64,000 nucleotides of DNA from Sphingomonas alba (GTDB lineage Bacteria; Pseudomonadota; Alphaproteobacteria; Sphingomonadales; Sphingomonadaceae). Positions 45,946 to 54,886 of the stretch are shown piece after piece (positions within the stretch are counted from its first letter, which is position 1; the number at the start of each line of letters is the position of its first letter). The notes under the pieces are model-generated. The model ran no database searches. It was not told the DNA's origin and was given only the letters and a program-made list of their open reading frames with translations. A program made the translations under genes and the position numbers. The stretch covers positions 1,178,001 to 1,242,000 of the forward strand of contig NZ_JAMGBD010000001.1 in NCBI RefSeq assembly GCF_023516555.1, read 5' to 3'.

Positions 45946-45979
45946 GGTGCGGTCCCTTCGCGGGGGCCGCGCCTTTCTT
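45946..45979 (+). terminator. Rho-independent terminator after the CsgG-like gene
   Basis: GGTGCGGTCCC (45946-45956) pairs with GGGGCCGCGCC (45963-45973) over 11 pairs with two wobbles, a six-base loop and the T-rich tail TTTCTT. It lies 20 bases after the stop and just before the convergent regulator ends. Confidence 0.75.
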
Positions 45980-47321
45980 ATGCGGCGAGCCTGTATCCAA
46001 CGGCCGGTTCATTGAGGATCAGGCGGGGGCAGGAAGGGTCCTCCTCCAACTTCTGACGCAGCGCCCGAACGGCGACGCGAAGATAATCCGTCTGATGTTC
46101 CTGGGCCGGGCCCCATGCGACCCTGAGCAAATGTGCGTGGGTCAAAACCCTACCCGGATGCTTCGCCATCTCCGCCAGCACCGCATATTCCTTTGGGGTC
46201 AGGTGCACTGGCGCGCCGTTCCTCGACACTGTCCGATGAAAAAGGTCGATGGTCACCTCGCCGACTTCGACCGGCTTCTGGTCGTCGTCCGAGCCGGTCT
46301 CGCTCAGGTTTGCAAGATAGCGCTCCAGCTTTGTCGCCTCTGAGGCGAGCGCTGACATCATTTCCTTTTTGTCCTCGCCGCCGCGCCTGAGACCGCTCAC
46401 CGCCCTGACAATCGCCGACAGGCGCGGGCCCATGTCCTGAGCGATGGTCGACAACAAGGCCGAACGGATCCGGTCACGGTCGCGCGTCGCTTCGAAGTCG
46501 CGCGTTTCGGCTTCCAGCCGCGATCGTTCCATCGCCAGCGCAAGCTGGTCAGTGAGGTTGTCGAGCAGGTCGATCTGCCCAGCCGCAACTGGCCGTGTGC
46601 CGTCGTCGCGGGCAAGTCCGATCGTTGCCAGCACGGCACTTTCCGATCTGATCGGGTAGAAGACCCACTCGGTGGCGTTGACCGCCTCGGCGCCGCGGCC
46701 GGCAGGGCGGCCCGATTGCATCGCCCAGGCTGCGGCGGCGATGTCGCTGGGGGTCAACAAGGCGTGAGTAGGCCGCGCCGCGACCAGCTGCGGCTCCTCG
46801 ACCCCCGCCATGAACACTGCATTGCACTCGAAGAGACCGGCAAGCTCGCGGCAAGCGATCCTGCCAATCTGCTCGTCGTTCGACGTAGAAAGAAGCCTTC
46901 GCGCGAAGCCTGCGATCGTTGCGTTGCGCGCCGCATTGGCCTCGGCAATTCGAGCCGCCCTCCTCATTCGCGCCGCAAGCTGGCTGGTGACCAGAGCGAC
47001 CAGGAACAGCAAGGAAACGGTTGCGACGTCCTGTGCACTGGCGATGCGGAACGTGTGGAAGGGCGCCGTGAAGTAATAATTGAACGCCAGCGCCGAGCCG
47101 ACGGCGGCAACCAGGCCGGGACCTAGGCCATAAAGTGCGGCAGCGGCCAGCACGGCCGGGAGATAGAGGAGATCGACTGGGGAATTTCCCCAGCGCGGCG
47201 CCACCAGCATGCCGGCAAGGGTCGACACGGCCACCATGACCAGCGTCTCGGCATAGGGCCTGACGAGACCGATGGCAGTCGCTTCCCGGCGCTTGGCGAT
47301 CGAAATCGATGCGTCGTCCAT
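45978..47321 (-). CDS. Membrane one-component regulator: KdpD-like sensor fused to KdpE-type DNA-binding domain
   Basis: A 447-residue fusion. Residues about 20-115 hold four helices of the KdpD DUF4118 type (NYYFTAPFHTFRIASAQDVA). Residues 145-270 form a GAF-like domain. Residues 283-345 resemble the KdpD dimerisation domain, but the expected HDLRTP site reads AQDMGPRL, with Gln295 where the phospho-His should be. No ATPase or receiver domain follows. Residues 352-447 are an OmpR/PhoB winged helix closest to KdpE (VHLTPKEYAVLAEMAKHPGR, EPAVGYRLA). It therefore should bind DNA directly from the membrane. It is divergent from kup, its likely target. Confidence 0.88.
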   Translation of the reverse strand: MDDASISIAKRREATAIGLVRPYAETLVMVAVSTLAGMLVAPRWGNSPVDLLYLPAVLAAAALYGLGPGLVAAVGSALAFNYYFTAPFHTFRIASAQDVATVSLLFLVALVTSQLAARMRRAARIAEANAARNATIAGFARRLLSTSNDEQIGRIACRELAGLFECNAVFMAGVEEPQLVAARPTHALLTPSDIAAAAWAMQSGRPAGRGAEAVNATEWVFYPIRSESAVLATIGLARDDGTRPVAAGQIDLLDNLTDQLALAMERSRLEAETRDFEATRDRDRIRSALLSTIAQDMGPRLSAIVRAVSGLRRGGEDKKEMMSALASEATKLERYLANLSETGSDDDQKPVEVGEVTIDLFHRTVSRNGAPVHLTPKEYAVLAEMAKHPGRVLTHAHLLRVAWGPAQEHQTDYLRVAVRALRQKLEEDPSCPRLILNEPAVGYRLAA

Positions 47322-47403
47322 GGCCGCCAGATGCGCCTTGCCGATGCCGCCGTCGAGACTTCCCTATGGTTCATTCCCGAAAACCACATGGAATCTTTAT
47401 GCT

Positions 47404-47424: not shown

Positions 47425-49341
47425 ATGACAAGCATCACCGCGACGGCCGACACCGTCCCCGCTCCAAGCGCAGCTCACCAGGGTCCGCGCGACAAATTGC
47501 CGATCCTCATGCTCGGCGCCATCGGCGTCGTTTACGGCGACATCGGCACCTCCCCGCTTTACGCGCTGAAGGAGAGCTTCATCGGTCCCCACCCGATGGC
47601 GGTCGATCGGCTGCATATCTTCGGCGTCATCAGCCTCATCTTCTGGTCGTTGATGCTGGTCGTCACGGTCAAATATGTCTTCGTCGCGATGCGCGCCGAC
47701 AATCGCGGCGAGGGCGGATCACTGGCCTTGCTCTCCTTGATCCAGCGAAGCCTGCCCGGCCGAAAATGGACGGCCAGCCTTGTCACCATGGGGGTCCTGG
47801 CGACCTGCCTTTTCTACGGCGATGCCATGATCACGCCGGCCATTTCGGTGCTTTCGGCGGTCGAGGGCCTGACGATCGTCGAAGCCGGGCTTCAGCCTTT
47901 GGTGATTCCCATTTCAATCGGAATCCTCGTAGGCCTGTTCCTTGTCCAGGCGCGCGGCACCGCCCGCGTGGGCGCGATGTTTGGGCCAATAGTCCTCGTC
48001 TATTTTGCCGCCCTGGCGGTCCTTGGCGTAAACAATATCGCCTTGCATCCCGATATCCTGGGAGCGCTCAGCCCCAACTGGGCCGTGGAGTTCTTTCTCT
48101 ACAATCCGAAGCTGGCCTTCCTCGCCATGGGTTCGGTGTTCCTGGCGGTGACAGGCGCTGAAACGCTCTATGCCGACATGGGGCATTTCGGACGCAAGGC
48201 TATCGGCTTTTCCTGGTTGGGGCTCGTCTATCCGTGCCTCATGATCAACTACATGGGGCAGGGCGCACTGTTGCTCAGCAATCCCGCGGCTGCGGAAAAT
48301 CCCTTCTACCTCATGGCCCCCGAATGGGCGCGTTTGCCGCTGGTCGGAATCGCCACGCTGGCGACCATCATCGCCAGCCAGGCCGTCATTTCCGGTGCAT
48401 TCTCGGTCACCCACCAGGCGGTCCAGCTCGGGTTCCTTCCCCGACTGAAGACCATGCAGACCAGCGCCAAGGCCGCGGGACAAATCTATATCCCCGCGGT
48501 CAACTGGCTCCTGCTGGCGATGATCATCATCCTGGTCCTGGGATTCAAGGAATCGACCAACCTTGCCTCGGCCTACGGGATCGCGGTTACAGGAACGATG
48601 CTGATCACCACACTGATGCTGGCTTTCCTGGTGTTCCAGGTCTGGAACTGGAACCGCTTCCTGGCGATTCCGATCATCGGCATCTTTGCATTGGTCGACG
48701 GCATTTATTTTGCGTCGAACATTACGAAGATTCCGGACGGCGGCTGGTTCCCGCTGGTCGTGGCTGCGATTAGCTTCACCGTCCTCACGACCTGGGCGCG
48801 CGGCCGGCAGCTGCTGCGCAAGGCGCTGGAGGAAAATTCGGTGCCGCTGCAGGTTTTCGTCAAATCGGCCAAGTCGGCCTTCCGCGCCCGTGGCACCTCG
48901 GTCTTCATGTCATCCTCGGCTGACGGCATCCCCTCGGCGCTGCTTCACAATTTGAAGCATAACCAGGTCGTACACGAGCGTGTCGTCATCCTGACCGTAA
49001 AGGTGGAAGGCGTGCCCCACGTCGATGCCGCCAATCGCAGCGAGACGAAGGAAGTCGGTGACGGCTTTTATCGCGTCATCCTCCATTACGGCTTCATGGA
49101 AGAGGTCGACATCCCCGGCGACTTGCAGCGGGTGACCGACGCGGGCGGTCCATTTGACATGATGCGCACCAGCTTCTTCCTTGGCCGCCAGAAATTGATC
49201 GCGACAAAGGAGCGGCCCGGCATGGCCCTGTGGCGCGAACGGCTGTTCGCCTGGATGCTCAAGAGCTCGGAGAGCGCGATGGAATTCTTCCGCCTGCCGA
49301 TCAATCGCGTGATCGAGCTTGGCAGCCAAGTGCAGATATGA
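47425..49341 (+). CDS. kup: Low-affinity potassium transport protein Kup
   Basis: A 638-residue protein with about 12 helices. The N-terminal signature is GAIGVVYGDIGTSPLYALKE; the conserved DNRGEGG, FYGDAMITPAISVLSA and GAETLYADMGHFGRKAI blocks are present, and the C-terminal cytoplasmic domain has VVILTVKVEGVPHVD. It imports K+ with protons. The ATG at 47425 gives the family length. Its stop overlaps the ATG of the next gene. The fusion regulator is divergent 103 bases upstream. Confidence 0.96.
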   Translation: MTSITATADTVPAPSAAHQGPRDKLPILMLGAIGVVYGDIGTSPLYALKESFIGPHPMAVDRLHIFGVISLIFWSLMLVVTVKYVFVAMRADNRGEGGSLALLSLIQRSLPGRKWTASLVTMGVLATCLFYGDAMITPAISVLSAVEGLTIVEAGLQPLVIPISIGILVGLFLVQARGTARVGAMFGPIVLVYFAALAVLGVNNIALHPDILGALSPNWAVEFFLYNPKLAFLAMGSVFLAVTGAETLYADMGHFGRKAIGFSWLGLVYPCLMINYMGQGALLLSNPAAAENPFYLMAPEWARLPLVGIATLATIIASQAVISGAFSVTHQAVQLGFLPRLKTMQTSAKAAGQIYIPAVNWLLLAMIIILVLGFKESTNLASAYGIAVTGTMLITTLMLAFLVFQVWNWNRFLAIPIIGIFALVDGIYFASNITKIPDGGWFPLVVAAISFTVLTTWARGRQLLRKALEENSVPLQVFVKSAKSAFRARGTSVFMSSSADGIPSALLHNLKHNQVVHERVVILTVKVEGVPHVDAANRSETKEVGDGFYRVILHYGFMEEVDIPGDLQRVTDAGGPFDMMRTSFFLGRQKLIATKERPGMALWRERLFAWMLKSSESAMEFFRLPINRVIELGSQVQI

Positions 49342-54226: not shown

Positions 54227-54325
54227 CATAAGCGGCGTCGCCAACACTCAAGCGTGTGGCGTGATCGCGAAATGCTTTTTTTGCCTGCCCAATAGTGTCT
54301 CGCGCCTGTTGTTTTGGGATGTGCG

Positions 54326-54886
54326 ATGAGTCTTGTCGGCGTGCTCAAGCGGTGGCTGGTCGAGCCGCCGGTGTTCGATGCCATGGTGCTGCCCTGCGCC
54401 TTTGCGGCGGTGACGGTTCCGACCGCCCTGCGTTTCGTAGTCGATGACCACATTTCCGGCGTCGCCTTCTCGCCCTATTTGCCGTTCGTGCTGATCGCGG
54501 CGCTGCTGATGGATTGGCGCTATGCCGCGCTGGTTGCGCTGGCGTCGGCGGCGGTTGCGGACATGATGTTCATCGACCCGCGCTTCGTGCCGATCGCCGG
54601 ACCGACCGACGTCTTCGGCATCCTCGTCTTCCTGGGCACATCGGCGTTGATGCTGACGCTGGTGCGGGCGGCGCGCTACTTCGTTCGCAACAGTCCTGGA
54701 CCGGTGGCGTGCGAGAGCAAGGCGACGGGTATCATCTTCAGCCTGGAGGACGGCCAGGCCTGGGCCAGCTGGTCCGGCTGCGGTTCGAGGCAGCGCCTCG
54801 GGCCCGAAGAGGAAGTTGCGGGCATGATGAAGGACTTTCTTGCCCAGGTGGAGATCGGCAGGCGGCTCAACCGCCAACCGCTTTGA
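54326..54886 (+). CDS. Membrane protein with DUF4118-like helices and a soluble tail
   Basis: A 186-residue protein. Residues about 15-120 hold about four hydrophobic helices (AMVLPCAFAAVTVPTALRFV, PFVLIAALLMDWRYAALVAL, FGILVFLGTSALMLTLV), arranged like the KdpD-type DUF4118 region. The C-terminal 60 residues form a small cytoplasmic domain (KATGIIFSLEDGQAWASWSG, EEVAGMMKDFLAQVEIG). No kinase or DNA-binding domain. Assignment to that family is tentative. Confidence 0.55.
   Translation: MSLVGVLKRWLVEPPVFDAMVLPCAFAAVTVPTALRFVVDDHISGVAFSPYLPFVLIAALLMDWRYAALVALASAAVADMMFIDPRFVPIAGPTDVFGILVFLGTSALMLTLVRAARYFVRNSPGPVACESKATGIIFSLEDGQAWASWSGCGSRQRLGPEEEVAGMMKDFLAQVEIGRRLNRQPL

Follow-up and report, generated by a model that had tools for sequence, protein, structure and literature searches.

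Can a sensor kinase and its response regulator become a single membrane protein that controls transcription, and which genes would such a protein control? The question is raised by one gene in the 64,000-nucleotide stretch of Sphingomonas alba DNA analysed here (the window). A preliminary description had read this gene as a KdpD-like membrane sensor joined straight to the DNA-binding domain of KdpE and lying divergent from kup. The features of the locus, in window coordinates, are as follows.

45978..47321, minus strand: fusion regulator gene, KdpD-type sensor plus KdpE-type winged helix, 447 aa
46941..47255, minus strand: DUF4118 / KdpD four-helix membrane domain, residues 23-127 (Pfam, 6.8e-26)
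46524..46868, minus strand: GAF domain, residues 152-266 (Pfam GAF_3, 2.2e-6)
46293..46523, minus strand: DHp-like helical hairpin without phospho-His, residues 267-343; Gln295 at the His position
45981..46271, minus strand: KdpE-type winged helix, residues 351-447
47352..47357, minus strand: CTCGAC at a conserved position, possible -35 element of the fusion gene's own promoter
47381..47402, plus strand: KdpE-like candidate operator, half-sites CACATGG (47385-47391) and TTTATGC (47396-47402), 11 bp apart
47425..49341, plus strand: accessory kup K+ transporter gene, probable target, 638 aa (Pfam K_trans, 3.3e-185; NCBIfam kup)

Domain architecture and distribution of the fusion

The reading frame runs from ATG to TAA with no internal stop. 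The Pfam matches to DUF4118 and GAF_3, the DHp-like hairpin in the AF2 model and the NCBIfam KdpD profile agree on the KdpD sensor half that had been proposed. In the AF2 model, the membrane domain consists of helices at residues 16-44, 47-64, 66-84, and 96-144, of which residues 29-121 match KdpD in PDB 2ksf, and the hairpin region is formed by helices 247-313 and 319-342. Trans_reg_C was matched at residues 369-445 (Pfam, 2.3e-19); this winged helix is of the OmpR type, and its best matches are to KdpE, with YycF tied within 1 Z. Based on the NCBIfam profiles, residues 25-299 correspond to positions 404-677 of 895 in KdpD and residues 344-445 to positions 122-223 of 225 in KdpE, and the winged helix directly follows the sensor, as described. 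Both scores lie far below the whole-protein cut-offs, as expected for a protein that holds only parts of each.

Of the profiles suggested for a check of this architecture, DUF4118, GAF_3, and Trans_reg_C were matched, whereas HisKA and HATPase_c were not; Response_reg was likewise unmatched, in agreement with the claimed absence of ATPase and receiver (Pfam listing to E = 1, where HMMER filters remove most matches above about 0.1). In alignments with the short KdpDs of two relatives, G003 and G257, Gln295 falls at the phospho-His position, which bears out the claimed replacement of this residue; in a 29-row alignment of fusions the H-box position holds Gln, Glu, Asp, Thr, Arg, or Lys, and never His. 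Compared with a KdpD/KdpE system, the protein thus has the same membrane (DUF4118), GAF, and dimerisation parts, the same winged helix, and a box with an 11-bp period, but it is one protein that lacks the N-terminal KdpD/Usp domains, HATPase_c, the H-box His, and the receiver, and it sits at kup (once at trkAH) instead of kdpFABC. One chain holds both membrane helices and a DNA-binding domain, the structural definition of a transmembrane one-component regulator.

Among 199 family genomes, 12 carry a full-length fusion, as do 17 of the 71 genomes of the source genus, and a box search of 296 order genomes added three more. Altogether, 29 distinct genomes, the source genome included, carry a complete fusion, and all belong to one family. 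In this count L004 and G367, which give one same match, were counted once, and a partial (G243) and a broken copy (G209) were left outside. With 29 complete copies, the fusion gene is genuine, and a sequencing artefact, a frameshift, or chance can be ruled out. The proteins are 440-468 aa long, depending on the chosen starts, and share 72 invariant columns, the winged helix being the best conserved part. Alignment A1 contains 28 of the 29 rows, without the fusion of G215 (L115, TTG start).

Incomplete forms were also observed. The gene is in pieces in G209, a genus genome that is 86% complete; only its second half is present in G243, at a contig end; and G213 carries a sensor-only fragment near kdpA (L106, 4473-6721, minus strand), where a 286-aa sensor-only DUF4118 protein and a 460-aa ORF lie upstream of kdpA. 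At E <= 1e-40, 385 genomes sampled from the class and 398 from the phylum yielded no full-length fusion outside the family: the single carrier in the class sample is the source genome (G000), and the three in the phylum sample (G000, G079, and G050) are all of the same family. A KdpD-like match in a 1261-codon open frame (L152, G498:C1:2062635) is possibly a longer KdpD fusion.

Linkage to potassium uptake genes and the intergenic box

As stated in the preliminary description, kup is divergent from the fusion gene, and its start lies at 47425. The survey of sphingomonad genomes that it had called for recovered the same domain order in all 29 genomes, with the fusion divergent from kup in 28. 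At the 29th locus (G238; L118, 605-3489, minus strand), trkA and trkH stand in kup's place (Pfam TrkA_N, TrkA_C, and TrkH), with a weak copy of the box between; among the 18 genomes searched for TrkH (G257 and the 17 carriers of the fusion in the genus), G238 alone has it. As a rule, the kup next to a fusion is of an accessory type: a kup at least 70% identical to that of the window occurs in 15 of the 71 genus genomes, in all 15 beside a complete fusion (13), the broken fusion of G209, or a two-component pair (G257). Some kup is present in 62 of the 71, mostly at 55-63% identity to the window's kup, and the source genome holds a second kup of this type at G000:C1:320402-322348. A different kup stands beside the fusion in G210 and G264 (57%), and yet another in G242 (52%, truncated at the contig end). 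It seems that the transporter was exchanged and the regulator kept.

A complete kdpD/kdpE pair elsewhere had been named as a finding that would speak against the proposal. Searches of the source genome (99.99% complete) with DUF4118, the KdpD N-terminal domain, and KdpA revealed no separate KdpDE pair: KdpA and the KdpD N-terminal domain were not found, nor was TrkH. DUF4118 was matched three times, by the fusion gene, a 190-aa protein at 54314-54886 on the plus strand of the window (7.3e-8, no other Pfam match), and, more weakly, a 338-aa ORF at G000:C1:1056092, which has kinase-like letters and is too short for KdpD. Across the genus, KdpA occurs in 7 of 71 genomes, of which only G205 also has the fusion, and G149 contains a second KdpD-like frame of 897 codons followed by a KdpE-like match. 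Since G205 and G149 hold both kinds, the fusion and Kdp are not mutually exclusive, which rules out the fusion as a strict replacement of Kdp.

The intergenic region contains a near-invariant 21-bp block, AATCCACATGGAATCTTTATG on the kup strand (47381-47401 in the window). When the 330 nt preceding each fusion were scanned for their best match, the box had 0-3 mismatches in 28 loci and 5 in the trk locus of G238; none of 100 shuffles of the window gave a match with up to three mismatches. Each base of the box carries 1.3-2.0 bits of information, compared with 0.1-0.4 bits for each of the 12 bases upstream. An in-frame kup start follows 23-27 nt past the box in 28 of 28 loci (23 or 24 nt in 26), and nearer in-frame starts are possible at some of them. 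At up to three mismatches, the box occurs in 14 of 199 family genomes: all 12 with the fusion, at one site each, and 2 of the 187 without it (G082 and G150, each with three mismatches). One box per fusion genome across the family sample suggests a dedicated regulator that acts locally. A match on a 4.6-kb contig of G336, which shows no fusion or kup match, was taken as chance, and a sigma-54 promoter at the box was dropped after inspection by eye.

The E. coli KdpE site is reported to consist of TTTATA and TTTACA with 5 bp between (PMC3264566). The box, a direct repeat, has the same 11-bp period and the layout of a KdpE site. In its second half-site, 18 loci match all 7 positions of the KdpE half-site and 10 loci match 6, whereas the first half-site departs from it, with 3-5 matching positions (4 in 22 loci and 3 in 6). 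Sites such as CTTACGCGATCCTTACGC occur in the kdp regions of the family, and in 8 of 20 such regions some site reaches 13-14 of 14; the half-site pattern was written after viewing those regions, which makes the comparison post hoc, and the shuffle maxima (20 shuffles per region) were 11-13, as high as the site of L139 with its 13. For the pair at kup in G003, the site is TTTACGCAATCCTTATGG, with a score of 13 of 14 (shuffle maximum 11). In G257, CACATGGCATCCTTACAC aligns with the fusion box and scores 10 of 14, no higher than the best shuffle (10); a second site in this region reaches 12 of 14, and the fusion box pattern itself is absent from G257 at up to five mismatches. KdpE residues R193 and R200 are described as needed for DNA binding, and T215 is also named (PMC3264566). 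With an inferred two-residue offset of the PDB chain, the two arginines align with R415 and R422 of the fusion, and T215 aligns with Asn437, a mismatch; all three fusion residues are invariant in 29 of 29. Control of kup, as proposed from the window, is strongly supported by the conserved KdpE-like box together with the linkage in 28 of 29 genomes.

Additional motifs surround the box. Of the 29 loci, 27 have CTCGAC or CTCGAT within 70 nt upstream of the chosen fusion start (23 of them at -36 or -37), and this motif could be the -35 element of the fusion gene; CTCGAC is also found in G257, upstream of an inner ATG in the KdpD frame. An invariant CA lies 12-13 nt past the box, within CCACAT in several loci. 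In several loci (for example L040, L042, L044, and L122) CCCACAT stands 7-8 nt before the kup start; this leaves little room for a leader, and leaderless transcripts are possible for kup and perhaps also for the fusion.

Two-component relatives and origin

Intact short-KdpD/KdpE pairs lie divergent from kup in G257, a member of the same genus, and in G003. Their KdpDs contain DUF4118, HisKA, HATPase, and the H-box His, and the adjoining KdpEs contain a receiver and a winged helix. In the sensor tree (71 rows, rooted on an outside KdpD), the fusions form one clade (100/99), with the G257 KdpD as their sister (100/99) and the G003 KdpD next (100/98). In the winged-helix tree (101 columns), the fusions are not one clade, and the KdpEs of G257 (88) and L049 fall among them; this tree neither resolves nor contradicts the branching order. 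The tree input consisted of 61 sensor and 56 winged-helix matches, reduced to 59 and 55 rows by dropping L081 as a duplicate of L105 and leaving out matches with fewer than 250 or 85 aligned positions. The final sensor tree went from 88 to 71 rows, with 18 names listed for exclusion (duplicates, the broken row L049, and thinning).

The window's fusion matches the G257 KdpD at 50% over residues 21-339 and the G003 KdpD at 40% over residues 20-360, and from residue 347 it matches the G257 KdpE at 70%. Because the protein follows a short KdpD to about the end of the DHp and then the winged helix of the adjoining KdpE, the simplest event would be an in-frame loss of the HATPase and the receiver. 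It thus appears that a two-component system linked to kup was reduced, through loss of the ATPase and the receiver, to a transmembrane one-component regulator acting on K+ uptake. The collapse suggested in the preliminary description is supported by the domain order and the two-component sisters. In G035 and G127 kup also adjoins a short KdpD/KdpE pair, but these KdpDs branch elsewhere, on a long branch, and were rejected as relatives of the origin. There (L047 and L048) kup is followed on the same strand by the divergent pair, perhaps an independent association with kup.

Predicted mode of action and precedents

We consider it probable that the protein is a transmembrane one-component regulator, derived from a collapsed kup-linked KdpD/KdpE pair, that would switch on the accessory kup at low K+; its response to potassium and the direction of control are our inferences. 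Against this reading count the poor fit of the first half-site, Asn437 in place of T215, the DHp dN/dS of about 1 in two pairs, and the winged-helix tree that does not group the fusions. According to published work, KdpD detects K+ outside the cell through an externally accessible site and K+ inside it through the C-terminal cytoplasmic domain (PMC5936718; PMC11018627), and the membrane and GAF domains of the fusion may sense both in the same way. The hairpin, without phosphorylation, would dimerise and set two winged helices on the 11-bp direct repeat. In a genus mostly without Kdp and Trk, the fusion would act as an inducible switch for K+ uptake. On balance, though with less assurance, we favour a broader view, in which one internal collapse turned a two-component system into a phosphorylation-free one-component switch with operator and target kept, the KdpD membrane-GAF-DHp module can relay a K+ signal mechanically to DNA with no need for ATP, His, or receiver, and the regulator outlived swaps of its transporter.

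The sign of control might be the opposite, with the fusion repressing kup from the same operator, at high K+ or constitutively, if the box covers the core promoter. The box ends so near the kup start in most loci (23-24 nt in 26 of 28) that its TTTATG could act as a -10 element. Pho boxes, however, stand in for the -35 element; by that geometry the invariant CA past the kup box falls at about the place of a -10 element, so the box may replace -35, which favours activation. The parent KdpE, too, is an activator (PMC5936718). Its E. coli site at -72 to -50 sits further upstream than the box, and its isolated DNA-binding domain is reported to bind with no activation in vivo (PMC3264566), so activation by the fusion is not a given. 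Taking these points together, we regard repression as somewhat unlikely.

We find it doubtful that the fusion controls kup in response to something other than K+, such as turgor, membrane state, a GAF ligand, or the state of Kup itself. Adjacency to kup would permit co-sensing with the transporter, but the linkage persists with the other kup types of G210, G264, and G242 and with trkAH, which argues that K+ uptake, and not one transporter, is the common factor. A functionless, decaying KdpDE remnant is highly improbable. The broken copy in G209, the sensor-only fragment in G213, the 54 of 71 genus genomes lacking a full-length copy, and the DHp dN/dS near 1 in two of the eight pairs listed (L121/L126 and L039/L121; 0.8-0.9 in two more) might point to decay. 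Across the seven pairs other than the closest, dN/dS was 0.29-0.57 overall and 0.34-1.06 in the DHp. Against decay stand the 29 complete copies with their invariant columns, the overall dN/dS of 0.20 for the closest of these pairs, L040/L042, with values as low as 0.06 for its DHp and 0.09 for its winged helix, and the box, kept in 29 of 29 loci, weakly in one.

In regulators of the ToxR/CadC type the winged helix is N-terminal and is combined with a single membrane helix and a periplasmic domain, whereas the winged helix of the fusion is C-terminal and follows a four-helix membrane domain and a GAF domain. Transmembrane transcription regulators are described as a recognised class for which a two-component origin has been proposed, with gonococcal Rsp as an example (PMC10269533). 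Rsp of Neisseria gonorrhoeae is a fusion of nps and npa, a PilS/PilR-like pair (PMC10269533, PMC6528607), and its role is reported in two ways, as repression of pilA (PMC10269533) or as no role in pilE transcription (PMC6528607). In both cases a membrane sensor kinase and its response regulator were fused into a sensor with a DNA-binding domain. The parts of Rsp are of the PilS/PilR type, whereas the Kdp fusion is kept in 29 genomes, its box is conserved among them, its probable target lies next to it, and it has sisters that are still two-component systems. Hybrid two-component systems of Bacteroides likewise join a sensor to a DNA-binding domain in one chain (PMC10269533; PMC11253607), but, as described, they contain both a histidine kinase and a response regulator, unlike the fusion. 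A published section on KdpD variants in 5495 species with Kdp mentions no such fusion (PMC11018627). Titles and abstract openings in the open-licence PMC literature yielded no description of a fusion of KdpD with the KdpE winged helix. Gonococcal Rsp is the nearest precedent for a collapsed two-component system, and the idea is already known.

In most discussions, one-component systems come first and two-component systems arise from them. This locus offers the reverse step, with a kinase and regulator in G257 and G003 and a fused form, box conserved, in 29 genomes. Its special value lies in the intact two-component sisters, the inherited box, and the transporter swaps. It makes testable how a dimerisation hairpin could signal without phosphorylation and how KdpD reads K+ when the kinase chemistry is gone. 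For these bacteria, mostly without Kdp and Trk, it points to an inducible Kup system.
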